The notes under the pieces: generated by a model
Database searches by the model: none
What the model was told of the DNA's origin: nothing
The model's input: the letters and a program-made list of their open reading frames with translations, nothing else
Shown: in pieces, positions 11,071-28,543 of the stretch
Layout: each line of letters opens with the position of its first letter
Position numbering within the stretch: the first letter of the stretch is position 1
Origin: Sphingobium herbicidovorans
GTDB lineage: Bacteria > Pseudomonadota > Alphaproteobacteria > Sphingomonadales > Sphingomonadaceae
Direction of reading: 5' to 3'
Assembly: GCF_002080435.1 (NCBI RefSeq)
Contig: NZ_CP020538.1
Location: forward strand, 2,661,501 to 2,725,500
Length of the DNA: 64,000 nt
Made by a program: the position numbers and the translations under genes

Positions 11071-11134
11071 TTTAGGTTGCGTTTCGATACTTGTTTGGCA
11101 TGATCCGCCCATTGACCGATCCGGGAGGAATATC

Positions 11135-11788
11135 ATGATCATCTATGGTGCGCGGGTTTCACCCTTTGTCCGCAAGGTCATCGTCTTCGCCGCAGAAAAA
11201 GAGCTGGCGGTAGAGGTGAAGCCGGGCGGGTTCGGGCAGGGCGGGGAAATCTTCGCCCAGGCATCTCCCTTCGGCAAGATACCGGCATTTCAGGATGGCG
11301 ATTTCCTGATCAGCGACAGCAGCGCGATCATAACCTATATGGATGCTGTCCAGCCTGAACCGAACCTGATCCCGCTGGAGCCGAAGGCGCGGGCTCGGAC
11401 AATATGGTATGAGGAATTTGGCGATACCATCGTGCAGGCGGCGGGCGCTGCGATCTTCTTCAACCGCGTGGTCGCGCCGCTGATGGGCATGCCGCAGGAT
11501 CTGGCGGCGGCGGAAAAGGCAGAGGCCGAAGCTCTGCCGCGCGTGCTGGATTATATCGAGAAGACATTGCCTGACAGCGGTTTTCTGGTGGAGGATCGAT
11601 TTACGTTGGCCGACATCGCGGTCGTGTGCCCGCTGATGAATGTCGGCTATTGCGATACGGTGCAAATCGCGGATCGTTGGCCAAAAGTTGGACAATGGAT
11701 GGAGCGGATGCGCGCGCGCCCCAGCTTTGCCGCTGCCCTGGAGATTGAAATCCCGCAGATCGAGAAAATGAAGGACAAGCTGAAATAA
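11135..11788 (+). CDS. Glutathione S-transferase family protein
   Basis: The 217-residue protein has the thioredoxin-fold N-terminal domain (MIIYGARVSPFVRKVIVF, then GKIPAFQDGDFLISDSSAII) and the helical C-terminal domain (FTLADIAVVCPLMN, a GST motif). Substrate cannot be told. GGGAGGAA lies eight bases before the ATG. It is the last gene before the GTA cluster. Confidence 0.9.
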   Translation: MIIYGARVSPFVRKVIVFAAEKELAVEVKPGGFGQGGEIFAQASPFGKIPAFQDGDFLISDSSAIITYMDAVQPEPNLIPLEPKARARTIWYEEFGDTIVQAAGAAIFFNRVVAPLMGMPQDLAAAEKAEAEALPRVLDYIEKTLPDSGFLVEDRFTLADIAVVCPLMNVGYCDTVQIADRWPKVGQWMERMRARPSFAAALEIEIPQIEKMKDKLK

Positions 11789-11857
11789 CCTATTTGGAAC
11801 ATTTATCTTGACATCGTCACGCTGTTCTGGCAGGAATGTCGATATTGGGAGTTGTGA

Positions 11858-11910
11858 GTCGCCGCAGCGGTGACGAGGCAAGGGCTGGTCCGGTTGGACC
11901 GGCCCTTTTT
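11858..11910 (+). terminator. Hairpin plus intrinsic terminator before the GTA cluster (possible small RNA 3' end)
   Basis: A first hairpin (GTCGCCG-CAG-CGGTGAC, 11858-11874, one G-T pair) is followed by a terminator: arms 11882-11891 and 11896-11905 with loop GGTT, then five T. It lies 70-120 bases after the GST stop, and the first terminase gene starts 30 bases later. It may simply end the GST transcript, or be the 3' part of a short RNA. Confidence 0.65.
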
Positions 11911-11940
11911 GCTTGGGGATGAGCGGGAGGACAGCGTGGC

Positions 11941-12513
11941 ATGGCAAAGCAGGAGGACGGAGCCGGGACGAGGCGTTTTTCCGGGAAGGCGAGCGATGGC
12001 CCGGACCGCGTCCTGACTGTGCAGCGCAGCCAGCGCGGTGCGGCGGGAAGCGGAGCGCAGGTCAGGGCCGTGCGCAAGGATGGTTGGACAGAGGCGAGGC
12101 GCAAGAGCTTCATGGAAACGCTGGCCGCGACCTGCAATGTCAGCGAGGCGGCGCGGGTGGCCGGCAAAAACCTGTCGAGCGCCTATTATCAGAAGCGGCG
12201 CGATCCGGGCTTTGCGCGGGAATGGGCGCAGGCGCTGAGCATCGGTTATGCCGAGTTGGAGGCCCTGCTGCTGCGGCAGGCGCTGTTCGGGACGGAGCAG
12301 GAAGAAGTGGTGCTGGATGCGCAGGGGCAGGTGAAGAGCCGCAAGCTGAAGCGCGGGCATCCCAATGCGGTGGCCGTGCGGCTGCTGGTGCAGCATCAGC
12401 GCGAAGCGGCGGGGAGGATCGCGGCGGATGCGGTCGACAGGCCCGATGGCGAGGATGCTGTCGAACGGCTGCGCAAGGCGCTGGAGAGAGTGCGGGAGAA
12501 GAGGGGGGATTGA
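11941..12513 (+). CDS. GTA gp1: small terminase subunit
   Basis: The 190-residue product carries a helix-turn-helix (WTEARRKSFMETLAATCNVSEAARVAG) followed by a long helical region, as in small terminases and RcGTA gp1. In the GTA it works with the large terminase to package random host DNA. GGGAGGA precedes the ATG. It opens the structural cluster, 31 bases after a terminator, so a promoter must lie nearby, but I see no clear -35/-10. Confidence 0.85.
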   Translation: MAKQEDGAGTRRFSGKASDGPDRVLTVQRSQRGAAGSGAQVRAVRKDGWTEARRKSFMETLAATCNVSEAARVAGKNLSSAYYQKRRDPGFAREWAQALSIGYAELEALLLRQALFGTEQEEVVLDAQGQVKSRKLKRGHPNAVAVRLLVQHQREAAGRIAADAVDRPDGEDAVERLRKALERVREKRGD

Positions 12514-12631
12514 GTAGGGATCGATGTTTCGCGTCGGCCCCTGCTCATCGCCAAACATTCAGGCTGCCAGTGACGCAAAGGAAGTGACTGACGACGAAGT
12601 AGAGGCTGAGCGCGGGAAGGGAGCAAGGCCT

Positions 12632-13966
12632 GTGGGGGGCATTTCGGATTTCGAGCGGTTGGCGGCGCTGCCCGACGAGGCGCGCGAGCGGGTGTTGGCC
12701 GGGCTGAACGGCGCGGCGGCGCAGGCGTTGGCGCATGATTGGGAATGGCTGGCGCGGCCCGAACAGTTGGCGCCCGAAGGCGACTGGCGCATCTGGCTGA
12801 TGATGGCCGGACGCGGATTTGGCAAGACGCGGGCCGGAGCGGAATGGGTGCGCGCCATCGCCGAACGGGACGGGCGGGCGCGGATCGCTTTGGTCGGCGC
12901 GACGCTGGGCGAGGCGCGCAGCGTGATGGTGGAGGGACCGTCCGGGCTGCTGGCGGTTGCGCCATGGTGGAACCGGCCAGCCTTTTCTCCCGCGCTGCGG
13001 CGGCTGATATGGCCCAATGGCGCGATGGCGCTGCTGTTCGGCGCGGCGGACGCGGAATCGCTGCGTGGGCCGCAGTTCAGCCATGGCTGGGCGGATGAGA
13101 TCGCCAAATGGCCGGGCGGCGAGGCGGCGTGGGACAATCTGATGATGGGCATGCGGCTGGGCGATCGGCCGCGCGTGCTGGCGACGACGACGCCGCGCCC
13201 GGTGCCGCTGGTGCGGACATTGGTGGCGGGGAAGGACAATGGCGTCGTGGTGACGCGCGGGCGAACGGCGGACAATCTGGCGAACCTGGCGGATGGCTTC
13301 GTGGCGGCGATGGAGCAGAGCTATGGCGCGACGCGGCTGGGGCGGCAAGAACTGGAAGGCGAGCTGATCAGCGACGTCGAGGGCGCGCTGTGGAGCCGCG
13401 ACCTGCTGGAGCGGTGCCGGGTGGCGCATGTGCCCGAGCGGGAGGATGGCGGCGCGCTGCTGTCGCGGGTGGTGGTGGGCGTCGATCCGCCAGCGTCCGC
13501 GCATGGCGATGCGTGCGGGATCATCGTAGCGGGACTGGGCGGCGACGGGCGCGCTTATGTAATTGCCGATGCAAGCGTCGAGAAGGCGACGCCGGAGGGC
13601 TGGGCCCGCGCGGTCGCGCAGGCGGCGGCGCAGCATGGCGCGGACCGGGTGATCGCGGAGGCCAATAATGGCGGCGCGATGGTGGAAAGCGTGCTGCGCG
13701 CGGCGGAGGCGGCGCTGCCGGTGCGGCTGGTGCATGCGAGCCGGGGGAAGTCGGCGCGGGCAGAACCGGTGGCGGCGCTGTATGAGGCGGGACGCGTGCG
13801 GCATCGGGGGGCCTTCTGGACGCTGGAGGATGAGATGTGCGGGCTGGTGGCCGGTGGCGGCTATGTGGGGCCGGGCCGGTCGCCCGACCGGGCCGACGCG
13901 CTGGTGTGGGCGCTGAGCGAACTGATGCTGGGACGGCGCGGACAGGCGCGGGTGCGGCCGGTGTGA
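12632..13966 (+). CDS. GTA gp2: large terminase (ATPase/nuclease)
   Basis: The packaging motor. Walker A is visible in MMAGRGFGKTRAGAEW, an acidic pair in GWADEIAKW, and the RNase H-like nuclease begins at VVVGVDPPASAHGDACGI with later acidic residues (IAEANNGG, SPDRADALVWA). I prefer the GTG at 12632 (444 residues, homologous sequence begins just after, AAGGGAG upstream). An ATG at 12524 would add 36 residues that do not look like the family. Confidence 0.92.
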   Translation: MGGISDFERLAALPDEARERVLAGLNGAAAQALAHDWEWLARPEQLAPEGDWRIWLMMAGRGFGKTRAGAEWVRAIAERDGRARIALVGATLGEARSVMVEGPSGLLAVAPWWNRPAFSPALRRLIWPNGAMALLFGAADAESLRGPQFSHGWADEIAKWPGGEAAWDNLMMGMRLGDRPRVLATTTPRPVPLVRTLVAGKDNGVVVTRGRTADNLANLADGFVAAMEQSYGATRLGRQELEGELISDVEGALWSRDLLERCRVAHVPEREDGGALLSRVVVGVDPPASAHGDACGIIVAGLGGDGRAYVIADASVEKATPEGWARAVAQAAAQHGADRVIAEANNGGAMVESVLRAAEAALPVRLVHASRGKSARAEPVAALYEAGRVRHRGAFWTLEDEMCGLVAGGGYVGPGRSPDRADALVWALSELMLGRRGQARVRPV

Positions 13967-14027: not shown

Positions 14028-14366
14028 ATGAAGCTGGCCAGAATCATGATGATAGCCGCTGGCGCGACGCTGGTTGCGACGCCGGTGATGGCTGCGTCGC
14101 TGAGCAGCAAGGAACGGGCGCGTGTGGCCCGCGCGGCTCCACGGGACAGGGATGATGTGCGCTATTGCCTGTTGCAGGCGAAGAAGGGGCGTGATCGCGG
14201 GACTGTGATCGGCGCGGCTGGCGGTGCTGGCGTGGGCGCTTTGGCGGGCGGCAACCTGGGCGAATCCCTGCTGGCTGGCGCGGCGGGCGCCGTGGCGGGG
14301 CGTGTGATCGGAAAGAGCGAGGGAACGAACGCGGAGTGTGATCGGGTGTTGCGGCGTAATCCTTGA
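14028..14366 (+). CDS. Glycine-zipper membrane protein inserted between GTA gp2 and gp3
   Basis: The 112-residue product has a signal peptide (MKLARIMMIAAGATLVATPVMAA) and a Gly/Ala-rich membrane hairpin (IGAAGGAGVGALAGGNLG, then AGAAGAVAGRVIG), typical of the glycine-zipper 2TM family of envelope proteins. GAGGAG lies upstream of the ATG at 14028. It has no known phage role and sits between terminase and portal, followed by a palindromic repeat. It reads as a host cargo gene inside the cluster. Confidence 0.75.
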   Translation: MKLARIMMIAAGATLVATPVMAASLSSKERARVARAAPRDRDDVRYCLLQAKKGRDRGTVIGAAGGAGVGALAGGNLGESLLAGAAGAVAGRVIGKSEGTNAECDRVLRRNP

Positions 14367-14405
14367 GATGAAGGGAGAGGGCGTTCCCCTCTCCAGGTTA
14401 TGGTA

Positions 14406-14453
14406 GGCGGCGAGCCGCCAACCTTCACCATCCTCTCCCCTGAACGGGAGAGG
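14406..14453. repeat. Bipartite palindromic element, copy 1 (before GTA gp3)
   Basis: Two hairpins are separated by 12 bases: GGCGGC-GA-GCCGCC (14406-14419) and CCTCTCCC-N6-GGGAGAGG (14432-14453), followed by a T-rich stretch. The layout matches the copies at 16518 and 17732, including the spacer pattern starting AA and ending AT. It ends 26 bases before the portal start. Another partial stem lies just upstream (about 14373-14393). Confidence 0.7.
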
Positions 14454-14479
14454 ATTTTGTTTTTGTGGCGGGGGCTTTC

Positions 14480-15607
14480 ATGAAATTGTTCGGGGCGAAG
14501 GCGGCGCGTTCGGGCGCGCGGCCGGTGTTGGCGCGTGCCTGGGGATCGGGCGCGATGGCTTTGGGGGAGTGGCCTGCTTCCTATGAGGCGCAGGTGCGCG
14601 CCGGGGTGATCGGCAATCCGGTGGCGCAGCGGGCGTTGCGGCTGGTGTCGGAAGGCGCGGGCGCGACAACGCTGGCGGTGAATGGGGTGGAGGATGCGGA
14701 GTATGGCCGTGTGGCTTCGCTGTTGACGCGTTGTTCGGCGGGGCAGGGGCTGGTCGAGACACTGGCGAGCCATTTGATGCTGCACGGCAATGGCTATGTG
14801 CAGGTGATGGCGGGCGCTGACGGCAAGCCTGCCGAGCTATATGCGCTGCGGCCCGAGCGGGTGAGCGTTGAGGCTGACGCGCGAGGGTGGCCTGCGGCTT
14901 ATCTCTATCGCGTGGGGGATAGTGTGACGCGGTTGATGCCGGAGGATGGCGTTGGGCGGGCTTCGATCCTGCACCTGAAGGCGCTGCATCCGCTGGACGA
15001 TCATTATGGGCTGGGTTGTGTCGGCGCGGCGGCTGGGGCGGTGGCGATCCACAATGCGGCGACGGTGTGGAACAAGGCTCTGCTGGACAATGCGGCGCGG
15101 CCTTCGGGGGCGATGGTCTATGATCCGGGAGACGGGTCGGTGATGTCGCCTGAGCAGTTCGAGCGGGTTAAGCGGGAGATGGAGGTCGCTTTTTCCGGTG
15201 CGGCCAATGCGGGGCGGCCGATGCTGCTGGAGGGCGGGCTGGATTGGAAGGCGATGAGCCTGACGCCGGCGGAGATGGATTTCGTCGGCCTGAAGGCTGC
15301 GGCGGCGCGGGAGATTGCGCTCGCCTTTGGCGTGCCGCCGATGTTGATGGGCCTGCCGGGCGACAATGCCTACGCCAATTATCGCGAGGCGAACAAGGCG
15401 CTGTGGCGGCAGACGATATTGCCGCTGGTGGGGAAGATCTGCGGCGGGCTGGCGCAGGGGTTGCAGGGGTGGTGGCCGGGGCTGACGCTGGCGGCGGATA
15501 TGGATGCGGTGCCTGCCTTGTCGGATGAGCGGGCGGCTTTGTGGGAGCGGGTGGCGAGCGCGGATTTCCTGACGGCGGACGAGAAGAGGGCGATGCTGGG
15601 GATTTGA
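14480..15607 (+). CDS. GTA gp3: portal protein
   Basis: HK97-family portal protein of 375 residues, forming the ring through which DNA enters the capsid. Typical segments are VAQRALRLVSEGA, LLLHGNGYVQ-like LMLHGNGYVQVM, and the C-terminal MLMGLPGDNAYANYREANKALWRQTILPL. I use the ATG at 14480 (MKLFGAK); a GTG at 14465 is also possible. Confidence 0.92.
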   Translation: MKLFGAKAARSGARPVLARAWGSGAMALGEWPASYEAQVRAGVIGNPVAQRALRLVSEGAGATTLAVNGVEDAEYGRVASLLTRCSAGQGLVETLASHLMLHGNGYVQVMAGADGKPAELYALRPERVSVEADARGWPAAYLYRVGDSVTRLMPEDGVGRASILHLKALHPLDDHYGLGCVGAAAGAVAIHNAATVWNKALLDNAARPSGAMVYDPGDGSVMSPEQFERVKREMEVAFSGAANAGRPMLLEGGLDWKAMSLTPAEMDFVGLKAAAAREIALAFGVPPMLMGLPGDNAYANYREANKALWRQTILPLVGKICGGLAQGLQGWWPGLTLAADMDAVPALSDERAALWERVASADFLTADEKRAMLGI

Positions 15608-15609
15608 GG

Positions 15610-15754
15610 TTCGCGCAGAGGCGCAGAGGGCGCAGAGGGCGCGGAGGGCGCGGAGGGCGCGGAGGTTCTTGATTCACGCGGAGGCGCGGAGATTTTTGAG
15701 GGCCGCCTTTGGGCGGCTTTTTGTTGCTCTGCGATCTCTGCGGCTCTGCGCGAA
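15610..15754. repeat. Tandem 9-base repeat island with inverted ends
   Basis: After the portal stop, about six units of the type GCGCAGAGG/GCGCGGAGG run from 15613 to about 15665, followed by a degenerate restart (TTCACGCGGAGG, 15674). The island ends with CTCTGCGCGAA (15744-15754), the exact reverse complement of TTCGCGCAGAG at 15610-15620. An intrinsic-terminator-like hairpin sits inside. It separates the portal gene from g3.5. Confidence 0.75.
15702..15722 (+). terminator. Intrinsic terminator-like hairpin between GTA gp3 and g3.5
   Basis: GCCGCC-TTTG-GGCGGC is followed directly by five T. It would terminate or attenuate transcription coming from the portal gene. Confidence 0.6.
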
Positions 15755-15773
15755 AATAATCGGGAGTGGGCCG

Positions 15774-16094
15774 ATGAAATATGATGGCGAGATGCTGGCG
15801 CGGCTGGTGGCGCAGGCTGAGAGCGCGCCGGGGCAGGCGGACATGGTGATGATCCGCGCTCTGATTGAGGAGGCGAGCGAGCTGGGCGCGGGGCGGGCGC
15901 TGGAGCGGCTGGGGCTGTCCGATCGCAGCGCGGAGGGGGATGTGCGGGAATTGCGGGAGCTGCTGTCGGCATGGCGCGACGCGAAAAAGGCGGCGCGCGG
16001 CGCTGTCGTCGGCTGGGCCGTGCGGATCGTGATGGCGCTGATCCTGCTGGGCGTTGCGGTGAAGGCGGGCCTGATCGGGATGGTGCGCGGATGA
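15774..16094 (+). CDS. GTA g3.5 protein (DUF6127-like)
   Basis: The 106-residue product begins MKYDGEMLARLVAQAE, is helical, and ends in a membrane-like segment (WAVRIVMALILLGVAVKAGLIGM). It occupies the g3.5 position between portal and protease as in other GTA clusters. Start chosen at 15774, with GGGAGTGGG upstream; the longer frame runs back into the repeat island. Function is unknown. It overlaps gp4 by ATGA. Confidence 0.8.
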   Translation: MKYDGEMLARLVAQAESAPGQADMVMIRALIEEASELGAGRALERLGLSDRSAEGDVRELRELLSAWRDAKKAARGAVVGWAVRIVMALILLGVAVKAGLIGMVRG

Positions 16095-16504
16095 GCGGGC
16101 CGGAGCCTTGTGAGGATGTCCGGTTCGCGGGCTATGCGGCGGTGTTCGACCGTATGGATCATGGCGGCGATGTGGTGCGTCCGGGCGCCTTTGCAGGTGT
16201 GGCGGCGGGCGTGCCGCTGCTGTGGCAGCATTCGCCCGGCGATGCGATCGGAACCGTGGAGCGGGTCGAGGAAGATGCGCGCGGATTGCGGGTGATCGGG
16301 CGGGTTTCACGGCGGACCAGCGCCGGACGGGCGGCGGCGCGCGCGCTGAAGGACCGGACGGTGGACGGCCTGTCCTTCGGCTATCGGGTGCGCGAGGCGC
16401 GGGGGGCTTCTCCGCGCGAACTGCTGGCTTTGGAGCTGGTGGAGGTGAGCGTCGTCACGCACCCGATGCAGCCATTGGCGCGGGTGATTGCGGTGGAGGG
16501 GTAG
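16091..16504 (+). CDS. GTA gp4: HK97-type prohead protease
   Basis: The 137-residue protein shows the family pattern: FAGYAAVFDRMDHGGDVVRPGAF, LLWQHSPGDAIGTV (catalytic His), and DGLSFGYRV (catalytic Ser region), then VEVSVVTHPMQPLA. It trims the capsid N-terminal scaffold. Start overlaps the g3.5 stop by four bases, showing coupling. A bipartite repeat separates it from the capsid gene. Confidence 0.9.
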   Translation: MSGPEPCEDVRFAGYAAVFDRMDHGGDVVRPGAFAGVAAGVPLLWQHSPGDAIGTVERVEEDARGLRVIGRVSRRTSAGRAAARALKDRTVDGLSFGYRVREARGASPRELLALELVEVSVVTHPMQPLARVIAVEG

Positions 16505-16517
16505 CAAGCCCCCTCAT

Positions 16518-16579
16518 CCAACTTTGCCTGGCCAGCGAGCTGGCAAGGCTTCGTATCCTTCTCCCCGGTGGGGAGAAGG
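16518..16579. repeat. Bipartite palindromic element, copy 2 (before GTA gp5), with terminator-like end
   Basis: Hairpins GCCAGC-GA-GCTGGC (16531-16544) and CCTTCTCCCC-GGT-GGGGAGAAGG (16557-16579), spaced by 12 bases. The whole 62-base unit matches copy 3 at 17732 at most positions. Copy 2 is followed by seven T (16580-16586), giving a textbook intrinsic terminator 18 bases before the capsid start. Confidence 0.85.
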
Positions 16580-16604
16580 TTTTTTTATGTCTGAGGAGTG
16601 GTGG

Positions 16605-17720
16605 ATGACGGACCAGTTGGAAGCGAGCTTTGACGCGGTGGTGCAGGGTGAGCGCATCGAGGCGCTCGAAGGGGAGATTGCGGCGCTGAAAGGGGTGCTG
16701 GTGCAGCAGCAGCGGCCTGCGCTGGATGGGGTGAAGGGCGGGGCCTTCGACCCCAAGCGGGCGGCGTTTGTCGATCGCTATTTGCGGCAGGGGCTTGAGG
16801 CGGGCGTGGAGCTGAAGAGCTTTTCGGGCGCGAGTGGCGCTGCGGGCGGCTATGCGGTGCCGCGCGAGATCGACCAGATCATCGACGCGACGCTGAAGAG
16901 CATTTCGCCGATCAGGTCCATCGCCAATGTCGTGCGGACGGGCACGGCGGGTTATCGCAAGCTGGTGACTTCGGGCGGCATTGTGTCCGGCTGGGCCAGC
17001 GAGACGGGCGCGCGGGCGGAAACGGGGACGCCCAGCTTTAACGAGATCGTGCCGCCTTCCGGTGAGCTGTACGCCAACCCGGCGGCGAGCCAGGCGATGC
17101 TGGACGACGCGCAGTTCGATGTCGAAGGCTGGCTGGCGGGGGAGATCGCCCGCGAGTTCGCCGCAGCCGAGGGCGCTGCCTTCGTCAACGGCAATGGCAC
17201 GGACAAGCCCAAGGGTTTCCTGACCTACGCAACCACCAATGAAGCCGACGGCGTCCGTGCTTTCGGGTCGCTGCAATATGTCGCGGCGGGCGCGTCGGCG
17301 GGCTTTGCGGCCACCAGCCCGCAGGACAAGCTGATCGACCTGGTGCAGAGCCTGCGCGCGCCCTATCGTCAGGGGGCCGTGTTCGTGATGAATTCGGCGA
17401 CGCTGGCGGTCATTCGCAAGATGAAGACGAGTGATGGCGCGTTCATCTGGCAGCCTTCGCTTAGCGCCGGGCAGCCAGCGACGCTGCTGGGTTATCCGGT
17501 GGTCGAGGCCGAGGACATGCCGGATATCGCGGCGGGATCGCTGTCCATCGCCTTTGGTAATTTCCAGGCGGGCTATGTGATTTCCGAACGCAGCGAGACG
17601 AGCATCCTGCGCGATCCGTTCAGCAACAAGCCGTTCGTGCATTTCTATGCGGTCAAGCGGATCGGCGGCGCGGTCGCCAATTCCGAGGCGATCAAGCTGA
17701 TGAAATTCTCGGCTTCGTAA
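16605..17720 (+). CDS. GTA gp5: HK97-fold major capsid protein
   Basis: The 371-residue product has an N-terminal coiled delta domain (ERIEALEGEIAALKGVLVQQQ) that the protease would remove, then the HK97 fold (AAGGYAVPREIDQIIDATLK, YRKLVTSGGIVSGWASE, FVNGNGTDKPKGFLTY, GYPVVEAEDMPDIA). ATG 16605 is preceded by GAGGAG; ATG 16587 lies in frame directly after the T-run and lacks a ribosome site. Confidence 0.94.
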   Translation: MTDQLEASFDAVVQGERIEALEGEIAALKGVLVQQQRPALDGVKGGAFDPKRAAFVDRYLRQGLEAGVELKSFSGASGAAGGYAVPREIDQIIDATLKSISPIRSIANVVRTGTAGYRKLVTSGGIVSGWASETGARAETGTPSFNEIVPPSGELYANPAASQAMLDDAQFDVEGWLAGEIAREFAAAEGAAFVNGNGTDKPKGFLTYATTNEADGVRAFGSLQYVAAGASAGFAATSPQDKLIDLVQSLRAPYRQGAVFVMNSATLAVIRKMKTSDGAFIWQPSLSAGQPATLLGYPVVEAEDMPDIAAGSLSIAFGNFQAGYVISERSETSILRDPFSNKPFVHFYAVKRIGGAVANSEAIKLMKFSAS

Positions 17721-17731
17721 CGGCCCTTCTT

Positions 17732-17794
17732 CCAACTTCGCCTAGCCAGCACGCTGGCAAGGCTTCGTATCCTTCTCCCCGCGAGGGGAGAAGG
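17732..17794. repeat. Bipartite palindromic element, copy 3 (before GTA gp6)
   Basis: Hairpins GCCAGC-AC-GCTGGC and CCTTCTCCCC-GCGA-GGGGAGAAGG (17771-17794) with the same 12-base spacer as copy 2. Differences from copy 2 fall mainly in loops, so both stems are kept. It ends six bases before the gp6 ATG and lacks a T-run. Confidence 0.85.
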
Positions 17795-17800
17795 ATCATT

Positions 17801-18352
17801 ATGCGGGAGGGGCTGGTGCTGGTGCGGGACGAAGTGGTGACGCCGGGCGCGTCGCTTGAGGAATTGAAACACTATCTGCGGATCAGCGGGAACGCGGAGG
17901 ACGGGCTGCTCGACGGGCTGCTCAAGAGTGCGACGGCGCTGTGCGAGCAGTTTGTCGGGCAGTGGCTGATCATCGGCGAGGCGCGGGAGACGGTGCGGGC
18001 GGATGGCAGCTGGCAGCGGCTGTCGGCGACGCCGGTGGTGGCGATATTGGGCGGGGAGGCTGTGGCCCCGGACGGCGGCGCGGAGGTCTTGCCCGCCGAT
18101 GCCTATGCGATCGACATCGACGCGGCGGGCGATGGATGGGTGCGGGCGCGGCCGCTGGATGGTCGGCGCGTGCTGGCGGTGCGCTATCGTGCGGGGATGG
18201 CCGAGGATGCCGATGGGCTGCCAGAGGCGATCCGCCACGGGATCGTGCGGCTGGCGGCGGAGAATTTCGCCGCGCGAGAGGGCGAGACGGCGAGCCCGCC
18301 CGCCGTGGTGGGGGCGCTGTGGCGGCCATGGCGGCGGATGCGGCTGGCGTGA
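17801..18352 (+). CDS. GTA gp6: head-tail connector/adaptor
   Basis: The 183-residue product has the connector pattern LEELKHYLRISGNAEDGLLDGLLKSATALCEQFVGQWL with a C-terminal helix (PEAIRHGIVRLAAENFAARE). It attaches below the portal. It follows directly on repeat copy 3 and overlaps the next small frame. Confidence 0.87.
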   Translation: MREGLVLVRDEVVTPGASLEELKHYLRISGNAEDGLLDGLLKSATALCEQFVGQWLIIGEARETVRADGSWQRLSATPVVAILGGEAVAPDGGAEVLPADAYAIDIDAAGDGWVRARPLDGRRVLAVRYRAGMAEDADGLPEAIRHGIVRLAAENFAAREGETASPPAVVGALWRPWRRMRLA

Positions 18353-28480: not shown

Positions 28481-28515
28481 GCAATTTCCATCCTTGCGGG
28501 TGGGAACAAGGTCGA

Positions 28516-28543
28516 GGGGCTGGTCGAAAGACCGGCCCCTTTT
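28516..28543 (+). terminator. Intrinsic terminator of ompA
   Basis: Arms 28516-28525 and 28530-28539 pair around a GAAA tetraloop and are followed by TTTT, 36 bases after the ompA stop. Confidence 0.85.

Follow-up and report, generated by a model that had tools for sequence, protein, structure and literature searches.

The gene transfer agent (GTA) cluster of Sphingobium herbicidovorans contains three two-hairpin elements, located directly upstream of the portal, major capsid and gp6-like connector genes, that belong to a dispersed repeat family resembling repetitive extragenic palindromic (REP) sequences and that probably provide a transcription stop signal, one that would have to be overridden for particle production. 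The cluster lies in a 64,000-nucleotide stretch of contig NZ_CP020538.1 (positions 2,661,501 to 2,725,500; hereafter the window, in whose coordinates positions are given) of a 4.24 Mb genome (G000), and the best relatives of its capsid are from Sphingobium. The repeat is a dispersed, REP-like family of the order Sphingomonadales, as copies occur in both genus and order samples, yet in the GTA it is strongly enriched and lies almost always on one strand, and its stems are kept by compensatory change.

The original prediction, made from the letters of the window, described each element as a 6-base hairpin with a 2-base loop, a 12-base spacer and a second, C/G hairpin, ending 26, 25 and 6 bases before portal, capsid and gp6. 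Direct reading recovers all three at these places and at these distances from the start codons (ATG at 14480, 16605 and 17801), with Pfam confirming the gene identities, and each element folds better than all of its shuffles (RNA folding z of -4.80, -2.75 and -5.52 for copies 1, 2 and 3; 0 of 200 equally stable shuffles each). The two hairpins and the 2-base loop stand as described, but the 12-base spacer is partly paired: its AGGC pairs with an upstream GCCT (in copy 1, ACC with GGT), lengthening hairpin 1 past a purine-purine mismatch. The unit as read here comprises a 6-bp stem with a 2-nt loop, a further 3-4 pairs across the purine mismatch, 6-7 unpaired bases and a C/G-rich hairpin of about 10 bp (Table 1). 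The inner hairpins are located at 14406-14419 in copy 1 (GGCGGC-GA-GCCGCC, the 12-base spacer being counted to CCTCTCCC), 16531-16544 in copy 2, where the spacer leads to a second hairpin at 16557-16579, and 17745-17758 in copy 3. Over 87 nt, copies 2 and 3 share 77% identity and, as anticipated, most of their differences within the hairpins affect the loops and the mismatch. Copy 1 is a more divergent member, with an E-value of 4.7e-6 in a covariance model of the family (R1; 68 positions, 20 pairs) compared to 1.2e-21 for copy 2 and 7.0e-21 for copy 3; its membership rests on design and model, since BLAST with copy 1 found no sister in its own genome (best other match E 0.098). Rfam returned nothing above gathering score for the elements and a single sub-threshold match elsewhere, at 15173-15221.

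T-rich tracts directly follow copy 1 (ATTTTGTTTTT) and copy 2 (TTTTTTT), and both score as terminator-like, while a scan of the whole window barely exceeds its shuffles (17 sites vs 11.7 +/- 3.3). Judged as intrinsic terminators, namely a GC-rich stem with a T-run at once behind it, copies 1 and 2 fit, the former with an interrupted run, and copy 3 has the stem only.

Table 1. Two-hairpin elements, neighboring genes and other hairpins of the GTA cluster, in window coordinates.
Feature	Position	Strand	Evidence or context
Copy 1 hairpin 1, pre-portal: GGT-A-GGCGGC-GA-GCCGCC-A-ACC	14402..14423	+	Direct reading; covariation in an alignment that includes 26 loci of relatives
Copy 1 hairpin 2, intrinsic-terminator-like; its T-rich tail, which is interrupted, reaches 14464	14430..14455	+	Terminator scans; R1 match 14390-14456, 33.3 bits
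Copy 2 hairpin 1, pre-capsid: GCCT-G-GCCAGC-GA-GCTGGC-A-AGGC	16526..16549	+	Reading, fold; R1 match 16514-16581, 88.2 bits
Copy 2 hairpin 2 (10 bp, loop 3) with TTTTTTT, intrinsic-terminator-like, end 18 bases 5' of capsid ATG	16557..16586	+	Terminator scans
Copy 3 hairpin 1, post-capsid / pre-gp6	17740..17763	+	Reading, fold; R1 match 17728-17796, 85.5 bits
Copy 3 hairpin 2 (10 bp, loop 4), no T-run, 6 bases 5' of gp6 ATG	17771..17794	+	Reading, fold
Extra 8-bp hairpin (GGAGAGGG..CCCTCTCC) just 5' of copy 1	14374..14394	+	Fold of 14366-14464
Portal gene	14480..15604	+	PF04860 E 1.2e-72
Prohead protease	16091-16501		GTA cluster, 5' of capsid
Major capsid gene	16605..17717	+	PF05065 E 8.9e-88; TIGR01554 E 3.5e-108
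gp6-like head-tail connector gene	17801..18349	+	PF05135 E 1.5e-6; TIGR02215 E 2.9e-18
Terminator-like hairpin with T-run, portal-DUF6127 gap, outside the two-hairpin family	15700..15719	+	Terminator rule scan; inside folded inverted repeat

Further copies were identified with an nhmmer profile built from the relatives' copies and with R1, which was adopted because an exact search for the second-hairpin pattern, matching only two GTA copies, understates the family. At E <= 1e-3, R1 finds four copies in the S. herbicidovorans genome, three of them in the GTA; the fourth adjoins a gene read as purQ by eye (E 3.7e-12). The suggested genome-wide search for the hairpin pair thus places the copies of this genome not mainly outside the GTA, and instead of hundreds of randomly scattered copies lacking conserved stems it yields four, in a family whose stems show compensatory changes. 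Copies are present in 68 of 81 genomes of the genus sample (own genome included; 0-54 each) and, at E <= 1e-6, in 22 of 118 genomes of the order sample (maximum 43 per genome). The suggestion that the elements might be REP-type mobile repeats therefore holds as far as dispersal is concerned, but the distribution is GTA-enriched and codirectional rather than a random scatter.

The enrichment was measured in 23 genomes, namely the own genome and 22 others of the genus that have no more than 10 contigs and whose capsid gene is intact. Of 27 low-contig genomes of the genus, 24 entered (G023, G049 and G062, with 18, 53 and 0 copies, were left out), and two of these were later removed, G047 for lacking a capsid gene and G059 for having only part of one. 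The 23 genomes hold 225 copies, 58 of which lie between 8 kb upstream and 12 kb downstream of the capsid start, where 0.94 would be expected by length (~60-fold), and all 58 are on the strand of the GTA genes. These copies recur at the same junctions, right before the capsid gene, right after it, before the portal gene and at several others. Among the 167 copies outside the GTA there are 42 pairs less than 150 bp apart, all inverted. With close copies merged, the GTA window holds 2-6 sites in 15 of 23 genomes, beating every other 20-kb window, none of which exceeds 2 sites in any genome; the remainder include three ties at one site and G038, where the GTA has fewer. In addition, nhmmer hits in 80 relatives' loci and the window are distributed forward to reverse 47:1 at E <= 1e-10 and 68:4 at 1e-3. 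In G059, which retains just a fragment of the capsid gene (query residues 299-371), the sole repeat copy of the genome (E <= 1e-3) lies directly 3' of that fragment (G059:C1:380963-381261). Forward/reverse pairs of the repeat in or near the GTA cluster were seen in loci L060 (5609-5776) and L048 (14162-14330). The idea that copies outside the GTA are codirectional 3'-end terminators was dropped after both orientations were found (40 loci, by eye, with a custom gene caller).

The stems covary. In alignment A3 (55 sequences: 54 of 56 hits plus L005), 90.8% of cells are paired and 13 of 20 pairs show double changes, amounting to 100 double-change cells compared to 31.7 after shuffling, with 0 of 500 shuffles as high. 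Pairing is found in 98.5% of cells in hairpin 1 and in 82.9% in hairpin 2, the latter value being reduced because loop lengths vary. An element similar to copy 1 precedes the portal gene in 26 relatives' loci; the alignment of this pre-portal element (A1, 27 sequences: the window and 26 of 38 portal-mapped loci of L016-L062, the 12 without a visible element being omitted) shows double changes at 11 of 19 pairs (43 cells vs 15.3 shuffled). Read on the sense strand, A1 contains 53 G-U cells and 14 A-C cells, an excess that points to sense RNA.

The comparison with GTA clusters of other sphingomonads, proposed at the outset, shows that both the elements and terminator-like hairpins recur at the portal and capsid junctions. 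Sites were called within 150 nt upstream of a start as a stem of at least 7 pairs, at least 5 of them G-C, with a loop of 3-8 and at least 5 T in 7. Sense sites precede the capsid gene in 47 of 78 loci, including 33 of 34 in the nearest set of relatives (L016-L051), with antisense sites in 1 of 78, and they precede the portal gene in 24 of 69 loci (nearest set 22/29; antisense 0/69); base-shuffled controls gave 0.0 at both places. Such sites also follow the capsid stop codon in 36 of 80 loci (nearest set 32/36; antisense 0). Most other junctions of the GTA seldom have terminator-like hairpins. In map order, the other starts gave 0/2 (terL), 0/27 (the next gene), 5/67 (DUF6127), 2/71 (protease) and 3/32 (gp6), and those after gp6 gave 0/40, 0/11, 3/70, 0/70, 11/68 (20388 homologue), 0/8, 0/65, 1/62 and 0/9, with 0.0-0.7 sites in base-shuffled sequences over GTA starts. 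Counts downstream of other genes were 0/70 for gp6, 7/72 for portal and 3/62 for terL, with 23/77 for protease, in part the same pre-capsid gap. The repeat itself carries a T-rich tail (at least 4 T in 8) in 21 of 51 Sphingobium GTA copies compared to 2 of 40 others (Fisher p 6e-5, the species not being independent); one of these 40 copies, in L165, adjoins a capsid remnant. For this comparison 60 of 126 R1 hits were entered, 51 of them counted as Sphingobium, and the stem end is misplaced in some rows.

Most near relatives have a further hairpin, GGGCGGTCC-loop-GGGCCGCCC-TTTTT, between the repeat (where present) and the capsid start. Genome G011, whose capsid is 98% identical and the closest among the other genomes compared, has the pre-capsid repeat together with GGCGGTCC..GGGGCCGCCC-TTTTT. 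In the window and in G010 this usual hairpin is absent, and the repeat hairpin abuts TTTTTTT. The usual hairpin is of the GCGGTCC..GGGCCGC-T type, the ordinary intrinsic terminator type of Sphingobium, and in that place the window has a repeat hairpin instead. Among the 23 genomes the type occurs at 0 to 5 places per genome (overlapping matches counted once), before the capsid gene in 15 of 23; its exact form has 0 matches in the own genome, window included. We dropped the notion that it forms a GTA-specific family, as the type also occurs elsewhere in 21 of 23 genomes. Downstream of the capsid gene, the window, G010 and G011 lack a second hairpin, which G003, G008, G080 and G050 retain. The simplest account, to our reading of these sequences, is that the old pre-capsid stem was lost and that the repeat stem took over beside the T-run.

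Of the roles first listed for the elements, setting transcript ends is the best supported on sequence grounds. We consider it somewhat better than an even chance (roughly 55%) that the repeats are kept sense-oriented in the GTA as stem-loops of the RNA, which would serve around the head genes as intrinsic terminators or attenuators internal to the cluster and be anti-terminated in producing cells. Hairpin 2 with the downstream T tract would form the terminator and hairpin 1 a conserved companion stem. In non-producing cells the elements would keep transcription from running on into the portal and capsid genes; in cells making particles, RNA polymerase under anti-termination by a regulator of the GafZ/GafA type, as in Caulobacter, would pass them, perhaps only partly, and with such partial read-through the hairpins may also influence the amount of each head mRNA. 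In S. herbicidovorans, a repeat hairpin would have replaced the older pre-capsid terminator stem beside its T-run. More tentatively, and at well below even odds, Sphingobium GTAs may have recruited a REP-like family as interchangeable, strand-selected terminator modules bracketing portal and capsid, such that head expression would need an anti-terminated polymerase, partial read-through would help set stoichiometry, and the repeats would be a reservoir renewing decayed terminators.

The proposal that the elements terminate or attenuate transcription within the GTA operon is drawn by analogy with Caulobacter crescentus, in which the terGTA repeats, just 3' of the terminase gene, are described as a strong terminator through which GafZ lets part of the polymerases pass (PMC11150451). 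Like terGTA, copy 1 with its tail (14402-14464) lies inside the GTA cluster, 3' of terL (12524-13963) and 5' of portal. Unlike terGTA, described as three 150-bp GC-rich direct repeats with inverted repeats inside the GTA cluster (Tran & Le 2024, PMC11150451), the Sphingobium units are about 68 nt long and stand before portal and both before and after capsid, a comparison made by description only. Three tandem 150-bp direct repeats were not found in the window, where the longest direct-repeat family is 87 nt (among 20 of 28 window families), nor did reading the terL-portal part by eye reveal tandem direct repeats. Termination and anti-termination are reported as demonstrated for terGTA (PMC11150451) and are predictions for the Sphingobium elements. 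GafA homologues are annotated as DUF6456 in the literature (PMC9638019, PMC9765227) and, as in the setting of terGTA, the own genome encodes a protein with this domain: one protein exceeds the PF20057 cut-off (G000:C1:1264415-1264804, E 3.3e-38), and among 14 control genomes the domain was found in Caulobacter only. The DUF6456 gene (L096 1495-2608; G000:C1 about 1264409-1265522) adjoins an oppositely oriented helix-turn-helix (HTH_31/HTH_3) gene.

Several observations weigh against internal termination. A terminator right before the capsid gene would cut capsid output unless overridden, copy 3 is followed by ATCATTATG with no T-run, the run behind copy 1 is interrupted, and the DUF6456 gene is a candidate GafZ counterpart by domain match. 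Outside the nearest set the pre-portal terminator is almost absent (2 of 40 other loci), terminator-like sites also stand before the 20388 homologue, all in L016-L051 and not in the window, and the usual pre-capsid type is, as noted, not peculiar to the GTA. The plain A3 alignment shows no strand bias (G-U 54, A-C 57), in part because second hairpins are misaligned; structure-fitted alignments give G-U to A-C counts of 27:14 in mostly GTA copies (64 rows of A4, from forward hits among the best 66, with at least one non-GTA copy, L005) and 20:21 outside the GTA (53 of 54 rows of A5). The usual pre-capsid hairpin (A2, built from 32 of the 47 capsid loci in L016-L062, with 15 omitted; the window is excluded because it lacks this hairpin) covaries weakly, with double changes at 2 of 9 pairs and 96 of 500 shuffles as high, because its sequence hardly varies. 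Moreover, the GTA window lacks units altogether in 4 of the 23 genomes, of which one has no copy anywhere, and reverse copies stand beside forward ones in L060 (5713-5776, E 9.7e-9, between terL and portal) and L048 (14162-14217, downstream of capsid). Finally, copies found at orthologous sites do not represent separate events, and the counts include shared ancestry; the independent placements are far fewer than the copies, roughly eight to ten position clusters as judged from the 23-genome map.

The main rival, which we regard as unlikely, is that the elements are intercistronic hairpins for mRNA stability or processing, which would not stop transcription but define the 3' ends of processed segments, so that the capsid mRNA would have a half-life of its own and the relative dose of the head proteins would be set in this way. 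It would better explain the post-capsid copy, which has a perfect 10-bp stem but no T-run; terminator-like or repeat hairpins also flank the capsid gene on both sides. Also in its favor, 145 capsid copies per particle are reported for the Rhodobacter capsulatus GTA (RcGTA), whose capsid gene is named among two genes that stand out by significantly higher codon adaptation (PMC9765227). Blocking an exonuclease needs no T-rich tail, however, and GTA copies have more than their share of such tails right behind the stem; terminators also have a direct precedent in a related GTA. Somewhat less probable still is that passive REP-type mobile repeats have gathered in roomy GTA intergenic gaps and have no role there. 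The dispersal of the family in genus and order would agree with this, as would its inverted pairs, which occur outside the GTA and, in L060, also within it, and the GTA gaps host another repeat too (of the TTCGCGCAGAGG type). Complete codirectionality and ~60-fold enrichment in the 23 genomes speak against passive gathering, if less strongly than the raw count suggests because independent events are few, and so do the T-rich tails of GTA copies, the repeated occupation of the same junctions and the repeat hairpin adjoining the T-run where the usual terminator stem is missing. A DNA-level role, as a site for a nucleoid protein, gyrase or the packaging or recombination machinery, is very improbable: the units are palindromic and the G-U to A-C balance outside the GTA is as expected of a DNA palindrome, but the single-strand bias of the pre-portal element, the orientation and the T-runs suggest RNA.

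The family has a partial likeness to known repeats. REP hairpins have a conserved GTAG/GGAG tetranucleotide at the foot; none was obvious in A3 by eye, with no dedicated test made. Like REP sequences and bacterial interspersed mosaic elements (BIMEs), the units are short palindromic extragenic repeats, at 0-54 per genome and often in inverted pairs outside the GTA; unlike them, the GTA copies are nearly always codirectional. The REP-associated tyrosine transposase (RAYT) domain Y1_Tnp (PF01797) was found in 3 of 9 genomes (G000, G007, G009), and a RAYT as driver was not supported: the domain is absent from genomes with 54, 53, 33 and 33 copies and present in genomes with 46 and with 0. The rhizobium-specific intergenic mosaic elements (RIMEs) and mosaic palindromes of rhizobia are multi-hairpin intergenic repeats of an alphaproteobacterial lineage that resemble the Sphingobium units, and we know of no link between RIMEs and GTAs. 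As described (PMC2573895), they belong to rhizobia, an order other than that of the sphingomonads, and are likened here by description only.

Internal terminators with anti-termination in the Caulobacter GTA are already known, and REP-like repeats are common. We found no open literature on this repeat family, on its concentration in sphingomonad GTAs or on terminators bracketing the capsid gene, and none linking REP-type repeats to sphingomonad GTAs, subscription papers not being covered. As GTA production kills the cell, a control step between promoter and head genes matters. The present results suggest that a Caulobacter-like logic operates in a second order, at precise positions upstream of portal and flanking capsid, with a repeat family supplying stems at these junctions. 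They offer defined sites at which anti-termination could be studied in sphingomonads, and they present a specific candidate example of REP-like repeats having been taken up as regulatory elements.

Elsewhere in the cluster, the terL gene is followed by a small protein with a weak glycine-zipper match, a DUF6127 protein is encoded between portal and prohead protease, and the tail genes after gp6 include those for an Rcc01695-family distal tail protein and for a megatron-like protein whose score is below its family cut-off. The portal-DUF6127 gap contains, at 15610-15754, a long inverted repeat (TTCGCGCAGAGGCGCAGAGG..CTCTGCGGCTCTGCGCGAA; fold z -7.04) that contains repeated GCGCAGAGG/GCGCGGAGG units and, within its loop, a terminator-like hairpin, and a 19-base core of this repeat is also present in L016, L022, L044, L059, L092, L095 and L110. 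Many relatives have capsid-gp6 gaps of about 1.8-2.5 kb, and in L042 (about 11113-13503) this gap has coding sequence that appears tail-fibre-like by eye. Terminator-like hairpins of 12 pairs flank the GTA region on either side, at 11880-11907 and 28514-28541 of the window.

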